Below are positions 4,776 to 35,160 of a DNA stretch of 60,735 nucleotides, one piece after another. The stretch's first letter is position 1; every line of letters starts with the position of its first letter. Source of the DNA: Desulfitibacter sp. BRH_c19 (lineage in GTDB: Bacteria; Bacillota; DSM-16504; Desulfitibacterales; Desulfitibacteraceae); contig LOER01000030.1 of NCBI GenBank assembly GCA_001515945.1, positions 1 to 60,735 of the forward strand. The letters run 5' to 3'. Under the pieces are notes generated by a model. It did no database searches and was not told where the DNA came from. It worked only from the letters and a program-made list of their open reading frames with translations. Position numbers and translations under genes: made by a program.

Positions 4776-7253
4776 ATGGAATGTTGTACATTATCTCCAC
4801 ATGAGCAAAAGATACAAGAAGAGCTCCATGGAAAGCAGAACTATCACGGTAGAGAAAGGGTTTACGAAATATTAAACTCTTTTAAAAACAAGAAACCAAT
4901 AATTGATATTGAAAGATCAAAGTATTTTACTGAATCCTTCAAACAAACAGAAGGTCAACCACTTATTCTGAGATGGGCAAAAGCTTTAAAGCATATTGCA
5001 GAAAATATTACTGTTTATATCGATGACCATCAATTACTTGTTGGTAGATCTGGAAACCAAGGAAGATATGGAATTTTATATCCCGAATTAGATGGGGATT
5101 TTCTTGATTTAGCTATTGAACAATTGCCAGAAAGAATTCAATCACCCTTTAATATCTCAGCAGAAGATGCAAAAGTAGTTATTGAGGAAATCTCACCCTA
5201 CTGGAAGGGGAAAACCTTCCATGAAGCCTTGGCAAAAGCTTTACCAGAAGAGACTTTAAAGCTTACATATGATCCAAAAGATGTATTAAAGTCAAGGTTT
5301 ATAGTAAATGAAACTGCATCCTTTAGATCCTCGCTTCAGTGGGTAGCTGATTTTGAGAAGGTACTCAAAAAAGGCTTCAAAGGACTTAAGGAAGATGCAT
5401 TAAAACAAATGGAAGTACTTGATGGCCTTAGTCCTGTTGATAATGTAGAAAAAGGTCCTTATTTAGAATCAATAGTTATTTTATGCGATGCTATTGTAGT
5501 TTGGGCAAAAAGACACTCTCAATTAGCGGCTGAAATGGCTACTATAGAAGTTGATGCCAAGAGAAAGCAAGAGCTTGAAGAAATTGCTCAAATATGTGCA
5601 TGGGTTCCTGAAAACCCTGCAAGAAACTTCCGTGAAGCTATTCAAGCACAATGGTTTACCCAGATGTTTTCACGTATTGAGCAAAAAACCGGTACTATTA
5701 TTTCTAATGGTAGAATGGATCAGTACTTCTATCCCTATTACCAAAAGGATATTGAAGAAGGTCGGATTACCGATAAAGAAATTGTAGAATTATTGGAATG
5801 TATGTGGGTGGCAATGGCCCAATTTATTGACCTATATATCTCACCAGCTGGTGGAGCAATAAATGAAGGTTATGCACATTGGGAAGCGGTAACAATTGGT
5901 GGCCAAACGCCAGATGGAAGAGATGCTACTAATGAGCTAACATATTTATTCTTAGAGTCCAAGAAAGAATTTCCATTAAATTATCCTGATTTAGCAGCAA
6001 GAATTCATGCCCGTTCACCAGAAAGATATATTTACGAAGTAGCAGAAACTATTAAAGAAGGCTCAGGATTTCCAAAGCTAATTAATGATGAAGAAACAAT
6101 ACCTCTATTACTAGCAAAAGGTGCAACCTTTGAAGAAGCTTATGATCATGCAATATCAGGATGTTCTGAAGTTAGAATGCCAAACAGGGATACTTATACA
6201 AGTGGTTGTGCTTACATCAACTTTGCTTCAGCTGTTGAAATGACATTATATAACGGTAAGACTAAGGCTACTGGTGATGAGGTAATTGGCCTTGAAACTG
6301 GAGATCCACAATGCTTTAAGACCTGGGAAGAATTTTGGAACGCTTATGTTGCACAGCAAACTAACTTTATCAAGCATGCTTTTATTCAGCAACACATCAT
6401 TATTAATCTAAGATCTAGACATTTTGCAGCACCCCTTTTATCATCACTACATGACCTGTGTATGAAGAATTGTAAGGACCTCCACTATCCTAAGATTGAA
6501 GGTGGAATTGATTTAGGATACTTTGAATTAATAGGTTATGGTACCGTAATAGACTCTTTAGCAGCAATTAAAAAGCTTGTTTTCGAAGAGAAAAGATTAA
6601 CCATGGGAGAACTTATTGACACCCTTGAAAATAACTTTGAAGGTAAAGAAGCGATTAGACAGATGCTGATAAATGCACCTAAGTATGGAAATAACGATGT
6701 GTATGCAGATACAATCGGCAAGGCCATTGATAGAGAAGCCGTCAAATTCACCAGTAAATATTCTAAGGAACTGGGAGTACACCTAGATTTAAGGCTAGTT
6801 CCATTTACATCACATGTTCCGTTTGGTAAAGCAGTAAGTGCTACTCCAAATGGTAGAAAAGCATTCACACCACTTGCTGACGGTTCATCCGCATCCCATG
6901 GTGCTGATGCTAAGGGGCCAACAGCTATATTATTGTCAAACTTCAATACCAAAAACTATGATTATAGAGAAAGAGCAGCAAGACTACTTAATATTAAATT
7001 AAGCCCTGCGACTGTTGCTGGTGACTTGGGAACTAAAAAGCTTGTGTCTTTTATCAAGACCTGGGCAGATCTAAAACTGTGGCATCTGCAGTTTAATATA
7101 ATAAATAGGGAAACATTACTTTCAGCACAAAAGGACCCTGACAAATATCGTGGTTTATTAGTAAGGGTTGCAGGATATAGTGCGTACTTTGTTGATTTAT
7201 CTCCAGATCTCCAAAGTGACATTATAGCTAGAACTGAACATAGTTCACTATGA
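4776..7253 (+). CDS. islA: Glycyl radical enzyme, isethionate sulfite-lyase type
   Basis: This 825-residue glycyl radical enzyme has the thiyl-radical site [11 protein letters not shown] (Cys463, Glu465) and the C-terminal glycyl loop RVAGYSAYF (Gly800). Set against the Bilophila wadsworthia IslA residues I remember (Arg189, Gln193, Trp374, Cys468, Glu470, Arg678, Phe682, Gly805), this protein has Arg184, Gln188, Trp369, Cys463, Glu465, Arg673, Phe677 and Gly800. All eight match at a constant shift of five. IslA cleaves the C-S bond of isethionate to acetaldehyde and sulfite. The choline lyase and diol dehydratase signature GCVEP is absent. AAGGAGG precedes ATG 4776, and the activase follows 82 nt later. 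The adjacent BMC genes fit sequestration of acetaldehyde. The substrate assignment is inference from residues, not proof. Confidence 0.85.
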
Positions 7254-7278
7254 CAAATAGTATAATATGAAACTAAGA

Positions 7279-7305
7279 TAAGTCCTGCAAACTTTACAGG
7301 ACTTA
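7279..7305 (+). other. Intercistronic hairpin between islA and its activase
   Basis: TAAGTCCTG (7279-7287) pairs perfectly with CAGGACTTA (7297-7305), nine base pairs with no T run after it. It is more likely a stability or processing element than a terminator. It would fit the need for much more lyase than activase. Confidence 0.45.
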
Positions 7306-7335
7306 CCTCACTTATTACTTGGAGGCTAGCTATTT

Positions 7336-8283
7336 ATGAATCCTGTAACGAATTTTGATACAAAAAAGTATGGTTATGTCTTTAATATTCAGCATTATTC
7401 GGTTCATGATGGACCAGGTATTAGAACAATTGTCTTTTTAAAGGGTTGTCCATTACGCTGCCAATGGTGCAGTAATCCCGAATCTCACCAATTGACTCCT
7501 ACCCTAGCATACAACAATAATAAATGTATAGGTATAGATGAATGTGGCTATTGCCTTAAAGTGTGTCCTGTGAGTGCCATAGAAAGAAATGAGGAGGATA
7601 ACAAAATCAAGATTAGCTGGCAGGTCTGTGATAATTGTTTAAAATGTTCAGAGGTCTGTCCCTCTAATGCGTTAACTCCATATGGAAAACTAATGAGTGT
7701 AAAAGAAGTAATTGACGCTGTAGAAGCTGATAGTGTATTCTATTCGAGATCTGAGGGTGGAATTACTCTTAGTGGCGGGGAGCCATTTTTTCAAATGAAT
7801 TTTGCTCTAGAGCTTTTAAAAGAAGCAAAAAAAAGAAGAATTAATACCGCAATCGAAACCACAGGTTACACAAATTGGACAAATCTTGAAACTTTATGCC
7901 AATACCTGGATACTATTTTGTATGACATAAAGTGTATTGATTCAGGTAAACACAAAAAATTTACTGGAGTATCTAATGAAAAAGTATTAGACAACTTTAA
8001 GAAAATGTGTGAAGCCTTTCCAAACATTGTAAAGATTGTAAGAACAGCAATAGTTCCAGGCTTTAATGATACTAACGAGGACATAATAGAAATTATTAAC
8101 TTCATAGATGGATTAGCAAATGTACAATATGAGTTGCTACCCTATCACCGATTAGGCCAACCAAAATATGAATATATGGGTAGAAAATATGTGATGGGAA
8201 ATGTAAAATTGGATGATAATAAAATGCAAACATTAATAACCCTTGTGAAAAACCAATTTTTCTTTACAGATAAGCTAAGTTAA
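7336..8283 (+). CDS. islB: Glycyl radical enzyme activase (radical SAM)
   Basis: This 315-residue radical SAM enzyme installs the glycyl radical on its partner. The SAM-cluster motif GCPLRCQWCSNPES has Cys38, Cys42 and Cys45, and GGITLSGGEP (141-150) is the SAM-binding GGE region. Between them lies a two-cluster ferredoxin insert (CIGIDECGYCLKVCP and CDNCLKCSEVCPS), typical of activases for the C-S, C-N and C-O lyase class but absent from the pyruvate formate-lyase activase. TTGGAGG precedes ATG 7336. Its partner by position is the islA product just upstream. A terminator follows at 8305. Confidence 0.93.
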   Translation: MNPVTNFDTKKYGYVFNIQHYSVHDGPGIRTIVFLKGCPLRCQWCSNPESHQLTPTLAYNNNKCIGIDECGYCLKVCPVSAIERNEEDNKIKISWQVCDNCLKCSEVCPSNALTPYGKLMSVKEVIDAVEADSVFYSRSEGGITLSGGEPFFQMNFALELLKEAKKRRINTAIETTGYTNWTNLETLCQYLDTILYDIKCIDSGKHKKFTGVSNEKVLDNFKKMCEAFPNIVKIVRTAIVPGFNDTNEDIIEIINFIDGLANVQYELLPYHRLGQPKYEYMGRKYVMGNVKLDDNKMQTLITLVKNQFFFTDKLS

Positions 8284-8380: not shown

Positions 8381-9058
8381 TTAATTTGAGATACTTTTGA
8401 TACTTGTCATTATAGGTTGTTGATTTTCATCAAGATAATAGCTTATTAGAACTTCATCACCATCAGAAAAGGTACTAAATTCTTCTCTTGCTTCTTCACT
8501 AATACGAAAAACTTTTATTGCAAAATCATCAGGCTGAACCCCACTAATTCTTACTTCAATTGAATTATTATCGATTTGCCCTATATAAGTCCCAGAGTCC
8601 TGTAAAATTTCTGAAGCTTGATGATTTATAGTCTCTGTAATTCCACCATACCTTAACTGCCTATTATCCCTTTCAATTTTTACAAGAATGTGTGGGTAGG
8701 TTAGTACTTGGGTAACTATACTGTCTCCAGATGGTTGGTTAAGCTCTGCCTTGAGCTCAATCTCATTTTCATAGCCTAATAACTCTAAATTTTCAATACT
8801 ATAACCACCTGTAGGCTTTTCTCCCGCAGATAATAATAAATATCTGTTCTCTCCGATTTCATGTTGATGAAGACCCTCAACTTGATAATTCTCCTCATAC
8901 CATTGTTCTAATTCCTTTGGAATTGCATCAGTAATAACTATTTCATAATCTATCTTTCCCATCTTAGGTTCTTTTTCCTCCTGCTTATTTGCATTACAGC
9001 CTACAGCAAATAATATTAGCATAAAAATAGCAACTACTAATATAGTCCTTTTAGCCAT
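8381..9058 (-). CDS. Lipoprotein with PrcB_C-like domain
   Basis: The 225-residue protein starts with a hydrophobic signal ending in LFAVGC, a plausible lipobox, so it is probably a membrane-anchored lipoprotein. Residues 65-115 (YLLLSAGEKPTGGYSIE ... YPHILVKI) match the PrcB_C type of domain, named after the treponemal protease-complex subunit PrcB. The C-terminal third (SGTYIGQIDNNSIEVRI) looks like a small beta-rich domain. ATG 9058 is preferred over an upstream GTG because GGAGT sits eight bases before it. It is a single gene with no operon partner, and its function is unknown. Confidence 0.7.
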   Translation of the reverse strand: MAKRTILVVAIFMLILFAVGCNANKQEEKEPKMGKIDYEIVITDAIPKELEQWYEENYQVEGLHQHEIGENRYLLLSAGEKPTGGYSIENLELLGYENEIELKAELNQPSGDSIVTQVLTYPHILVKIERDNRQLRYGGITETINHQASEILQDSGTYIGQIDNNSIEVRISGVQPDDFAIKVFRISEEAREEFSTFSDGDEVLISYYLDENQQPIMTSIKSISN

Positions 9059-9151
9059 AAAACTCACTCCTATAAAATTTTGTATTTATCCATATAGACG
9101 ATTAGTTTGCTATTAAGTTCCATATATAAAATTAGTTTGAATTGCTATGTA

Positions 9152-10282
9152 TTATTTACGGAAAAATTGTTTAAGCTTTGCCACAAATCCCAGTGGTTTG
9201 TCTTCTTCGTCAATAAAGCTTTTAGTTGAACCATCCTTTAAATTATGGACTTTAGGATTTAATTTTTCTGAGATGGCATATAAGTTTTTTGATGCAGGAG
9301 ATCCTGGGAAAGCAAGAATAAATGGTTCCATTATTTTTACTGCTTTATTTACATTATTATCTCTCAAAATATATCCTAATGGGTATGGTTTAATTTCAAG
9401 AAAGCGCCCTATAACTTCTAACATCCTCTTAGCTACGTTTCTTGCCTCTTCTAGGTCATCCACCATATTAAAAACCATTTTTACCGGCTTCTTAACTTTC
9501 TTTTCATTTAATACCTTAATAAGTGCGTATGCATCAGTAATTGAACTAGGCTCAGGAGTTACTACTACTACAATTTCATCTGCGGGAAGCAGAAAGTTAA
9601 TTACATTACGAGATATACCAGAACCCGTATCAATAATAATTACATCTGCATCGTTCTCTAAAGGTTCAAATAAATCAAAAACCCTATTGAGTTCAGATTC
9701 AGATAGTTCGGTCAGAGATTGGATTCCCGATCCCCCTGCAATTATTTTAATACCCCCTGGACCATCAACTACCACGTCCATTATATTAGTATTAGTTTTA
9801 TTCACTAAGTGCTCAATGGTATATTTTGCTTTTATTCCTAATAAAACATCAACATTAGCAGTACCAAGATCCGCATCAATAATGTATGTCTTTAATCCTT
9901 GTTGGGCAAAGGCAATTGCTGTATTAATTACATAATTTGTTTTGCCAACTCCACCTTTACCGCTTGTAACAGCTACAATTTTTGGAAGACCAGATTTTCT
10001 CCGTTGGTATTTCATAATAGATGCCTTCAGCTTTTTTCCTGGTCTAAAAACCGGAACTGTAGTAGATGATATTTCCAATATCTCACCAGTTCTAGGATTT
10101 CTTCCTACTCTAGCTGCTCTCTCTTTAGCTTCAAAAGAACCAAACCCCAAAACACGTACCTTGTCTCCATTTGCTAATGTTTCTTCAATATTATCAAATA
10201 TGGACGAAACAACTAACTGTGATTTTTTAATAGGAATTTCTGATTCTGCGGACACCCTTGATACTAATTCATTTTTATTCAT
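9152..10282 (-). CDS. HU DNA-binding domain fused to a MinD/FlhG-type ATPase
   Basis: Residues 1-90 form a complete HU/IHF-type protein (MNKNELVSRVSAESEIPIKK; GFGSFEAKERAARVGRNPRT at 46-65; VPVFRPGKKLK). After a basic linker (KYQRRKSGLPK) comes a ParA/MinD ATPase of about 275 residues with the deviant Walker A GKGGVGKT (108-115), IIDADLGTANVDVLLG and IIDTGSGISRNVINF, closest to the FlhG/YlxH group. The frame is unbroken and there is no start with a ribosome binding site at the junction, so it appears to be one polypeptide of 376 residues. GGAGGG lies upstream of ATG 10282. HU bends DNA and MinD-type ATPases place structures in the cell, so a nucleoid-linked positioning role is an inference. 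No flagellar genes are in view. Confidence 0.85.
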   Translation of the reverse strand: MNKNELVSRVSAESEIPIKKSQLVVSSIFDNIEETLANGDKVRVLGFGSFEAKERAARVGRNPRTGEILEISSTTVPVFRPGKKLKASIMKYQRRKSGLPKIVAVTSGKGGVGKTNYVINTAIAFAQQGLKTYIIDADLGTANVDVLLGIKAKYTIEHLVNKTNTNIMDVVVDGPGGIKIIAGGSGIQSLTELSESELNRVFDLFEPLENDADVIIIDTGSGISRNVINFLLPADEIVVVVTPEPSSITDAYALIKVLNEKKVKKPVKMVFNMVDDLEEARNVAKRMLEVIGRFLEIKPYPLGYILRDNNVNKAVKIMEPFILAFPGSPASKNLYAISEKLNPKVHNLKDGSTKSFIDEEDKPLGFVAKLKQFFRK

Positions 10283-10453
10283 AAAAGTATACCCTCCACT
10301 TATTAGCTTGTTGTTAATTTTGAATATTCCACATAATGTAATGTTTTCCTTCATATTTCAACCTTTTATTTCTCAAATTGCCAAATTTTGCAGGAATTAT
10401 CTAGAATATATAGAAAATAAAAACTAGTACAGCTTTTATGAGGAGGAATATAA

Positions 10454-11215
10454 ATGGCAGGTCTAGGTGAGAAGTTTATAAAAGCAAGGGAGAAAAAAGG
10501 ATTATCTATTATACAAGTTGAAAATGCAACAAGTATCAATAGTAAATACCTATTAGCATTAGAGGAAGAGAGATTTGTTAACCTACCTGATAAAGCCTTT
10601 ATAGAAGAAGTCATAAAAACCTATGGCTCTTATCTTGGGCTAAACTATTCCAAACTGCTAGTAGAATTTAACACCATTTGGATGGATGCAAATACCGCAA
10701 AGGAATATATTAAAGAAACATACACTAAACCACCAGGACGTGGATCCACAAATCCAATTTCGAGAAAAAAAATAGCTATAGCTGGACTTTTAGTTGTTTT
10801 AATTCTTATCTTCTTTGTTGGTTTTCAAAAAGAACAAGTACCAGATCCTAGTCCCCCCATAGTTGCTTTAGAAGAACAGCAAACATCTCCTATTGATAAT
10901 CATGATTTGGGTACTATAGAAACTACTAAGGAAGAAACTCCAGAAGCAATAGAGCCTGAAGTAGTAGAGCCAGAAGCAGATAGTATAGAACTCAAAGTTC
11001 TAGTTGCTAGAAGTGACTGTTGGTTGGAAGTCCAAGTAGATGAAGAAGTGGTAATGTATCGTCTTGTTCCCAAAGGAGAAGATCTCATATTTGAAGCTAA
11101 TAGTGAAATAAACATACTCTTCGGTAATGCAGCTGCTGTGGATGTTACATATAATGGACAATTTCTAGGACCACTAGGAGAAGAAAATCAAGTAATAAGA
11201 AAAACTTTTAATTAA
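10454..11215 (+). CDS. rodZ: RodZ-like cell shape protein (HTH, membrane helix, DUF4115)
   Basis: The 253-residue protein has an N-terminal HTH_25 domain (LGEKFIKAREKKGLSIIQVE; SSKY-type helix-turn-helix to about residue 70), a basic patch and one membrane helix (AIAGLLVVLILIFFVGF, 107-123). An acidic, proline-rich extracellular linker and a C-terminal DUF4115 beta domain (CWLEVQVDEEVVMYRLV ... GQFLGPLG) follow. This is the RodZ layout; RodZ links MreB filaments to the elongation machinery. GGAGGA precedes ATG 10454. It is divergent from the HU-ATPase fusion, with about 170 bp between them. Confidence 0.85.
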   Translation: MAGLGEKFIKAREKKGLSIIQVENATSINSKYLLALEEERFVNLPDKAFIEEVIKTYGSYLGLNYSKLLVEFNTIWMDANTAKEYIKETYTKPPGRGSTNPISRKKIAIAGLLVVLILIFFVGFQKEQVPDPSPPIVALEEQQTSPIDNHDLGTIETTKEETPEAIEPEVVEPEADSIELKVLVARSDCWLEVQVDEEVVMYRLVPKGEDLIFEANSEINILFGNAAAVDVTYNGQFLGPLGEENQVIRKTFN

Positions 11216-19991: not shown

Positions 19992-20083
19992 TTTTTTTTA
20001 TACCGTTATGCAAGTTAATGCCGTTATGCATTATAATACATATTCGGCAAGGATTTTAAATTTCCTTCTTTTTTATAAAAAAT

Positions 20084-33870: not shown

Positions 33871-35160
33871 TTAATTAGGGACTTTGGATAAGTTTCTTCT
33901 TCTATATATGCTAAGAATTGCACCAACTGCTAATGCATTAATGATTAACTGTGAGCCCCCATAGCTTATTAAAGGTAGACTGACGTCAGTTATTGGAGCA
34001 AGTCCTAGATTCATGGATATATACCATAAAAACTGCATAGAAAAGATTGCAATAAATCCACTTACTAATAGCTTAGCATAACTATATTTAACAATAGTTG
34101 CTATACGAGCGATTCTTACTAGAAACGCTACAATCATAGCTACAATTACTATCGCAACAATCCAACCAAAAGTGAAAGTCATATAAGCAAAAATAAAATC
34201 TGTATGCAGCTCAGGTATAATTCTCGGCTCTAATGTGAATCCCTGTCCATAAAAACCCGCAGAATCAATTAAATTGCTCAACTGTATATTCAAATAACCA
34301 CTTCCATGTGGATCTGCATGAGGGTTGATAAATGCAAACAGTCTTTGAAACATATATGGATTGTTTATGATGGGCAAGGCAATTATAGCTATCATAGCGC
34401 TAAACAGGAATATAGTGACCCTATATCCAACTCCAGAAACAATTAAGAGTACAATGCATGCTAAGGAATAAATGGCTGCAGAAACTAATGATGATCCATT
34501 AAACACTATCAAAACCAATGGTATTGCACATAATAATATTCCGTGTATGAACTTCTTGTAGTCTCGCCAATTCCTATTATTTAAAAGCCCTGCTAAAGCT
34601 ATTACAAATATTACTGGCATTATACTTACGACGTCTAGACTTATTCCTCCTATAATAAACCAACGATTGCCGTTAATTAGTGGATTTGTAAAAAATGTGA
34701 AGAGTAACAGTAGAGTAGCACCTATATAAATATGCTTAGAATAGTTCTCTAGCTTTCTATAGTCGAAGAAATAAATACCCACTACTATAACTGTTCCAAG
34801 TATAGTGTAGCTTAAAGTCCTTTCAAATAGGGAAAAACCAGATAACCCCTGCCTATCCATAAAATACATTACCATTAACCCTAAGGATACAAACAAGCTG
34901 CTCAATATTAGAACACTCCATTCTGGCTTAGGCTTATGTACCTCATCTAGTTGTTGTCCTACAATAGATGAATCCCCCATAACAGCAATTGCCTTGTTAA
35001 CTGCATCATCTTTAGACAAGCCTTGAGAAATATACTCTTCAACTACTTCTTGAATATGGCATAAAAGCTCTAGTCTTATTTCCTCATGCGCCTCACGGAG
35101 CCTTATTTCTGAGCATACACTATTGAGATATGATTGAACCTTTTCATTATCCTTTAGCAT
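33871..35160 (-). CDS. FtsW/RodA/SpoVE-like protein with N-terminal permease-prefix domain
   Basis: The 429-residue protein starts with an 80-residue helical cytosolic domain (SYLNSVCSEIRLREAHEEIR; GLSKDDAVNKAIAVMGD) of the permease-prefix or DUF1700-like kind. About ten membrane helices of the SEDS family follow. The SEDS hallmark near the C terminus is PITDVSLPLISYGGSQLIIN, and DFIFAYMTFTFGW precedes it. SEDS proteins polymerise or flip peptidoglycan precursors. The PadR gene upstream overlaps by 7 nt, so expression is probably controlled by PadR. It lacks an adjacent class B penicillin-binding protein. Confidence 0.88.
   Translation of the reverse strand: MLKDNEKVQSYLNSVCSEIRLREAHEEIRLELLCHIQEVVEEYISQGLSKDDAVNKAIAVMGDSSIVGQQLDEVHKPKPEWSVLILSSLFVSLGLMVMYFMDRQGLSGFSLFERTLSYTILGTVIVVGIYFFDYRKLENYSKHIYIGATLLLLFTFFTNPLINGNRWFIIGGISLDVVSIMPVIFVIALAGLLNNRNWRDYKKFIHGILLCAIPLVLIVFNGSSLVSAAIYSLACIVLLIVSGVGYRVTIFLFSAMIAIIALPIINNPYMFQRLFAFINPHADPHGSGYLNIQLSNLIDSAGFYGQGFTLEPRIIPELHTDFIFAYMTFTFGWIVAIVIVAMIVAFLVRIARIATIVKYSYAKLLVSGFIAIFSMQFLWYISMNLGLAPITDVSLPLISYGGSQLIINALAVGAILSIYRRRNLSKVPN

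Follow-up and report, generated by a model that had tools for sequence, protein, structure and literature searches.

An HU domain fused to an FlhG-type ATPase in Desulfitibacter, with a possible role between DNA and membrane

We describe a gene of Desulfitibacter sp. BRH_c19 that joins a complete HU/IHF domain to a MinD/FlhG-type ATPase in one protein. It lies on a stretch of 60,735 nucleotides (contig LOER01000030.1, positions 1 to 60,735), hereafter termed the window. The fusion, observed in one genus of spore formers, is real, conserved and unusual, and is a new form of the MinD/FlhG kind. Moreover, its ATPase belongs to an uncharacterised family of FlhG paralogues that lack the DQAxxLR helix and normally carry an N-terminal PilZN domain of the YcgR type.

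Anatomy and conservation of the fusion gene

The gene occupies positions 9152-10282 on the minus strand, where an ATG at 10282 opens a single uninterrupted frame of 376 codons that ends at the stop codon 9152-9154. The initial annotation had proposed this unbroken frame, leaving the strand unstated, and had read it as a complete HU domain fused to a complete MinD/FlhG-type ATPase with a deviant Walker A motif. Pfam matches, the motif SGKGGVGKTN (residues 107-116) and an orthologous fusion in a second genome of the same genus (G002) bear this out. Absent from that annotation were an amphipathic C-terminal helix, a sigma-H-type promoter and the standing of the ATPase as an FlhG paralogue with PilZN-bearing relatives. 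The ATG has a good ribosome-binding site (GGAGG); an alternative in-frame ATG upstream would give a protein of 400 aa and overlaps the predicted promoter. In an AlphaFold2 model of the fusion protein (mean pLDDT 84.5), the HU fold is complete and a short linker leads from it to a MinD-type fold, with the C-terminal helix (residues 366-373) standing apart.

The HU/IHF domain (residues 1-90; 10013-10282, minus strand) is matched by PF00216 over residues 1-89 (profile of 90 positions; E 4e-28; 98 bits against a gathering cut-off of 22.4). Full-length coverage above this cut-off is accompanied by an intact DNA arm with its RNP turn, arginines and P63, as in the HU/IHF nucleoid proteins. The two fusions agree at the arm residues R55, R58, R61, N62 and P63. 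However, the window HU is fused and has diverged from housekeeping HU: an ordinary HU gene is also present in the genome, and the fused HU domains form their own branch of the tree (support 100/98). Between the window gene and G002 the HU part is 59% identical, with a dN of 0.26 against a dS of 1.58 (dN/dS about 0.16), and therefore it is under purifying selection. It nevertheless evolves faster than the ATPase, which is 80% identical. The linker between them (residues 91-100; 9983-10012, minus strand), a low-confidence hinge in the AlphaFold2 model, is identical at 7 of its 10 residues (70%).

From residue 101 onwards the protein is matched by the MinD/ParA-type ATPase models of Pfam (AAA_31, E 2e-16; CbiA, E 1e-13). 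In addition to its Walker A, this domain (residues 101-345; 9248-9982, minus strand) contains a catalytic Asp motif (D136-A-D138) and a Walker B (IIIDTG, 215-220). The nearest solved structures are FleN 5j1j (E 2e-52) and FlhG 4rz2 (top Foldseek match), and these matches place the domain in the FlhG/FleN class of MinD-type ATPases.

The last 12 residues, GFVAKLKQFFRK (residues 365-376; 9155-9190, minus strand), form an amphipathic cationic helix in sequence and model (hydrophobic moment 0.68, net charge +4), a predicted membrane-targeting sequence (MTS) of the MinD/FlhG type. The last helix is 67% identical between the two fusion proteins whilst the preceding tail shows only 21% identity, and a similar C-terminal helix was found in nearly all of the FlhG paralogues compared. 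FlhG dimers bind the membrane via their C-terminal MTS (PMC12826062).

Suspicion had been raised over the junction at 9980-10020. This region is sound: the G002 fusion has no gaps and no stops and is 72% identical to the window protein over residues 1-374. As the same fusion occurs at full length in a same-genus genome, we reject a sequencing or junction error. The second fusion is independent and shows purifying selection, and in a relative that lacks HU (G082) the ATPase begins right after its own promoter. Taken together, these data make a frameshift, a misassembly or two separate products hardly credible, and we found no point in favour of such an artefact.

Among 398 genomes of the phylum, a match from residue 1 was found only in the window genome (G000) and G002, although few genomes represent each class (four for that of G000 and three for that of G082). 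A third genome of the same genus, 85% complete, contained no detectable copy. Scans of genome contigs and viral contigs with short peptide patterns identified no further HU-ATPase fusions, and no match among phage records covered 80% of the fusion query. The plasmid records gave one match above 80% coverage (query 30-345, 24% identity). We found no description of an HU-ParA/MinD fusion in the literature searched, most subscription papers being outside its reach; a survey that Burroughs and others devoted to the HU/IHF superfamily in 2017 could already mention HU-ATPase architectures.

Placement among FlhG paralogues

Better known identities for the ATPase were considered and rejected. It has its superfamily and a membrane helix in common with MinD, but scores far below the curated models of canonical MinD (104.4 against the bacterial cut-off of 212.9 for TIGR01968; 129.9 against 201.75 for TIGR01969), and no min genes occur among the annotated neighbours of the fusion gene. 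A ParA partition ATPase was dismissed likewise (NF041546, 49.8 against a cut-off of 180), with no ParB among the annotated neighbours. The closest likeness is to FlhG/FleN (YlxH), the MinD-family ATPase of flagellar number and position, with which the window protein has ATPase sequence, fold, motifs and C-terminal membrane helix in common. However, flagellar FlhG is defined by the DQAxxLR enhancer helix (PMC12826062), which is absent from the window protein, its N-terminus being HU. The gene also differs from flhG in its sigma-H-type promoter and in lying outside a flagellar operon, beside RodZ-like and metabolic genes. The genome's own FlhG (MLDQASRLREL...) is encoded on another contig, next to FlhF-/FlhA-type genes and a YcgR-type PilZN-PilZ gene. 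In the flagellar operon (L067:7932-9498) the true flhG and a YcgR-type PilZN-PilZ gene overlap, and the latter is a possible source of PilZN for the paralogues.

Within the ATPase subfamily of the window protein, 8 of 11 aligned members carry PilZN (PF12945) at the N-terminus. The tree places the pair of HU fusions (100/97) as sister to the domain-less copy of G082 (100/99). The next sister is the PilZN copy of G003, a member of the same order (100/96), and all of these fall inside a PilZN clade (99/96). N-terminal PilZN is absent from the window protein and, since the HU pair nests inside the PilZN clade, HU occupies the former place of PilZN. HU may either have been lost in G082 or have been gained after the loss of PilZN.

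The G082 copy, the closest relative (63% identity), retains the ATPase, the membrane helix, the promoter and the RodZ-like neighbour, and has no HU; its genome also carries a PilZN copy and an ordinary FlhG. Since this relative keeps everything else, neither HU nor DNA binding is required for the conserved core function. The PilZN-FlhG paralogues resemble the window protein in clade, promoter class and C-terminal helix, and differ from it in that the latter has HU for PilZN and a divergent RodZ-like gene. Paralogues of this kind without DQAxxLR, many with a sigma-H-type promoter just upstream, are found at L005, L007, L008, L034-L038, L069, L143, L150, L151 and L155. L046 and L050 contain FlhG with both DQAxxLR and an inserted PilZN and are possible intermediates between flagellar FlhG and the paralogues. 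No description of a PilZN-MinD family was found in the literature searched, which left most subscription papers out of reach.

Promoter and gene neighbourhood

The sigma-H consensus of B. subtilis is RnAGGAWWW-N11-RnnGAATWW, and promoters were called by this consensus only. A C. difficile sigma-H promoter has been printed in the same form (PMC7438776). A predicted promoter of the fusion gene, GAAGGAAAA-N11-GTGGAATAT (10324-10352, read from 10352 on the minus strand), matches with 0 mismatches and lies 41 bp from the ATG. The three genomes in which the ATPase gene adjoins a RodZ-like gene (the window genome, G002 and G082) all have an exact site here. Among 67 homologues, a site with at most one mismatch was found within 120 bp in 16 of the 25 without DQA against none of the 42 with DQA, an association (Fisher p = 1.8e-9) that is overstated as related sequences are not independent. 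The chance rate of such a match is about 0.8% per 120 bp.

Across the genome the pattern gave 42 matches, against 8 for a reversed control, and one of the 42 precedes a gene that we take to be spoVS. In C. difficile spoVS is a sigma-H gene (PMC7438776). Spo0A is present in the window genome; co-occurrence with sporulation did not discriminate, Spo0A being found in 345 of the 398 genomes. A second exact sigma-H-type site in the window (20040-20068, minus strand) lies 275 bp upstream of a gene for an ABC-transporter substrate-binding lipoprotein.

Divergent from the fusion gene is a RodZ-like gene (10454-11215, plus strand), recognised by Pfam (HTH_25, RodZ_C) and synteny. It is preceded by a sigma-H-like promoter with one mismatch (10390-10418, plus strand), the counterpart of which is exact with N12 spacing in G002 and has one mismatch in G082. 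There are two RodZ_C genes apiece in G000, G002 and G082, so the one beside the ATPase is an extra paralogue. This extra gene adjoins the HU-fused or domain-less ATPase, and none of the PilZN copies examined has it as a neighbour.

Immediately downstream, the fusion gene is followed by a lipoprotein-like PrcB_C gene (8381-9067, minus strand), in place of which G002 has a different gene. Other genes of the window include a (2S)-3-sulfopropanediol dehydratase, a glycyl radical enzyme of sulfonate degradation, with its activase (4776-8283, both above curated cut-offs), and a gene of the FtsW/RodA/SpoVE family (33871-35160, minus strand).

Possible functions of the fusion protein

The initial annotation held that a built-in HU would tie ATPase cycling to the nucleoid. 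This is the natural reading, given a DNA arm that is intact and identical in both fusions, but it is incomplete. Because the protein also has, in sequence and model, the C-terminal membrane helix of MinD and FlhG, it probably connects the membrane with DNA as well as tying the ATPase to DNA. We tentatively propose, at a little short of an even chance, an ATP-regulated DNA-membrane tether that is produced as cells enter stationary phase or sporulation. The N-terminal HU would bind and bend nucleoid DNA without much sequence preference and would keep the protein dimeric. The FlhG-like ATPase would form a closed sandwich dimer with ATP and open on hydrolysis. HU dimer and ATP sandwich would bring together the two C-terminal amphipathic helices, which may bind the membrane jointly, and best in the ATP-closed dimer. 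Sigma-H would activate the gene as growth gives way to stationary phase or sporulation, at which point the chromosome needs to be anchored or repositioned, and the second RodZ-like membrane protein would be co-expressed and may be a partner. Such a protein would have arisen when HU took the place of PilZN in the paralogue family.

We favour this tether because the helix resembles the MinD/FlhG MTS and because precedents exist in RacA and RocS. RacA of Bacillus subtilis belongs to a different protein family and has neither an ATPase nor an HU domain. It is a DNA-membrane tether in sporulation, as proposed here for the window protein (PMC6593407). RocS of Streptococcus pneumoniae, which acts in chromosome segregation, combines an N-terminal DNA-binding domain with a C-terminal 'MinD-like' amphipathic helix that needs oligomerisation for membrane binding (PMC11500499). 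However, RocS lacks an ATPase, contains an HTH and a coiled coil instead, and is not homologous to the window protein by its described domains. The retention of the membrane helix behind a poorly conserved tail also argues for a tether, as do the complete HU with its intact arm in both species, the intact ATPase motifs, the exact promoter in three genomes and the position of the HU pair inside the PilZN clade. Against it, only two species carry the fusion and a third genome of the genus showed no copy, the HU-less relative in G082 retains the other features, HU evolves faster than the ATPase, and the PilZN relatives presumably have some role that needs no HU.

The reading of the initial annotation can be extended to a ParA-like positioner, in which HU would be a permanent foothold on the nucleoid, ATP cycling with an activator would move or space cargo along DNA (perhaps the RodZ-like protein), and the C-terminal helix would be a leftover or bind a partner. 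In its favour, the nucleoid is the matrix for ParA-type ATPases, known HU proteins are non-specific, and the neighbouring membrane protein is conserved. We nevertheless consider this unlikely: the nearest ATPases are not ParA but FlhG/FleN and MinD, whose site of action is the membrane; the membrane helix is conserved and not decaying; and a fused HU would stay on DNA whatever the nucleotide, so that the ATP-gated release on which ParA gradients depend would be lost.

The membrane helix would be superfluous to a transition-phase regulator of transcription, in which the ATPase, like FleN, would contact RNA polymerase or a transcription factor whilst HU shaped promoters such as those of genes for flagella or sporulation. 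FleN acts on FleQ, FleN antiactivators are the nearest solved structures, HU/IHF proteins are architectural factors, and sigma-H timing fits. No FleQ-like gene was found among the annotated neighbours, however, and relatives have PilZN or nothing where HU stands, so that we regard such a regulator as quite improbable. HU domains are obligate dimers, and HU might serve as a dimerisation module only, so that the ATPase would depend less on ATP to dimerise and to bind the membrane, with DNA binding incidental or lost. The G082 relative does manage without HU, but the five DNA-arm residues, unneeded for dimerisation, are identical in both fusions despite the modest identity of the domain as a whole, and we give this reading very little credence.

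Returning to the tether, we put forward as a possibility, and one we would sooner doubt than assert, that the N-terminal domain of sigma-H-controlled FlhG paralogues is an exchangeable adaptor. With PilZN swapped for HU, the ATPase would have gained the nucleoid as its new target when stationary phase or sporulation begins, as a nucleotide-switched tether between chromosome and membrane.

ATPases of the MinD/ParA family are grouped according to whether the surface on which they work is the membrane or the nucleoid. If the tether model is true, both surfaces are joined in one molecule, which could be a single-gene, ATP-controlled chromosome anchor. Moreover, the family is a natural domain-swap experiment in which the same ATPase occurs with PilZN, with HU and with nothing. 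The wider family of PilZN-FlhG paralogues with sigma-H-type promoters is found in many Firmicute-type genomes and is apparently undescribed in the literature searched; it may be a more general result than the HU fusion itself.
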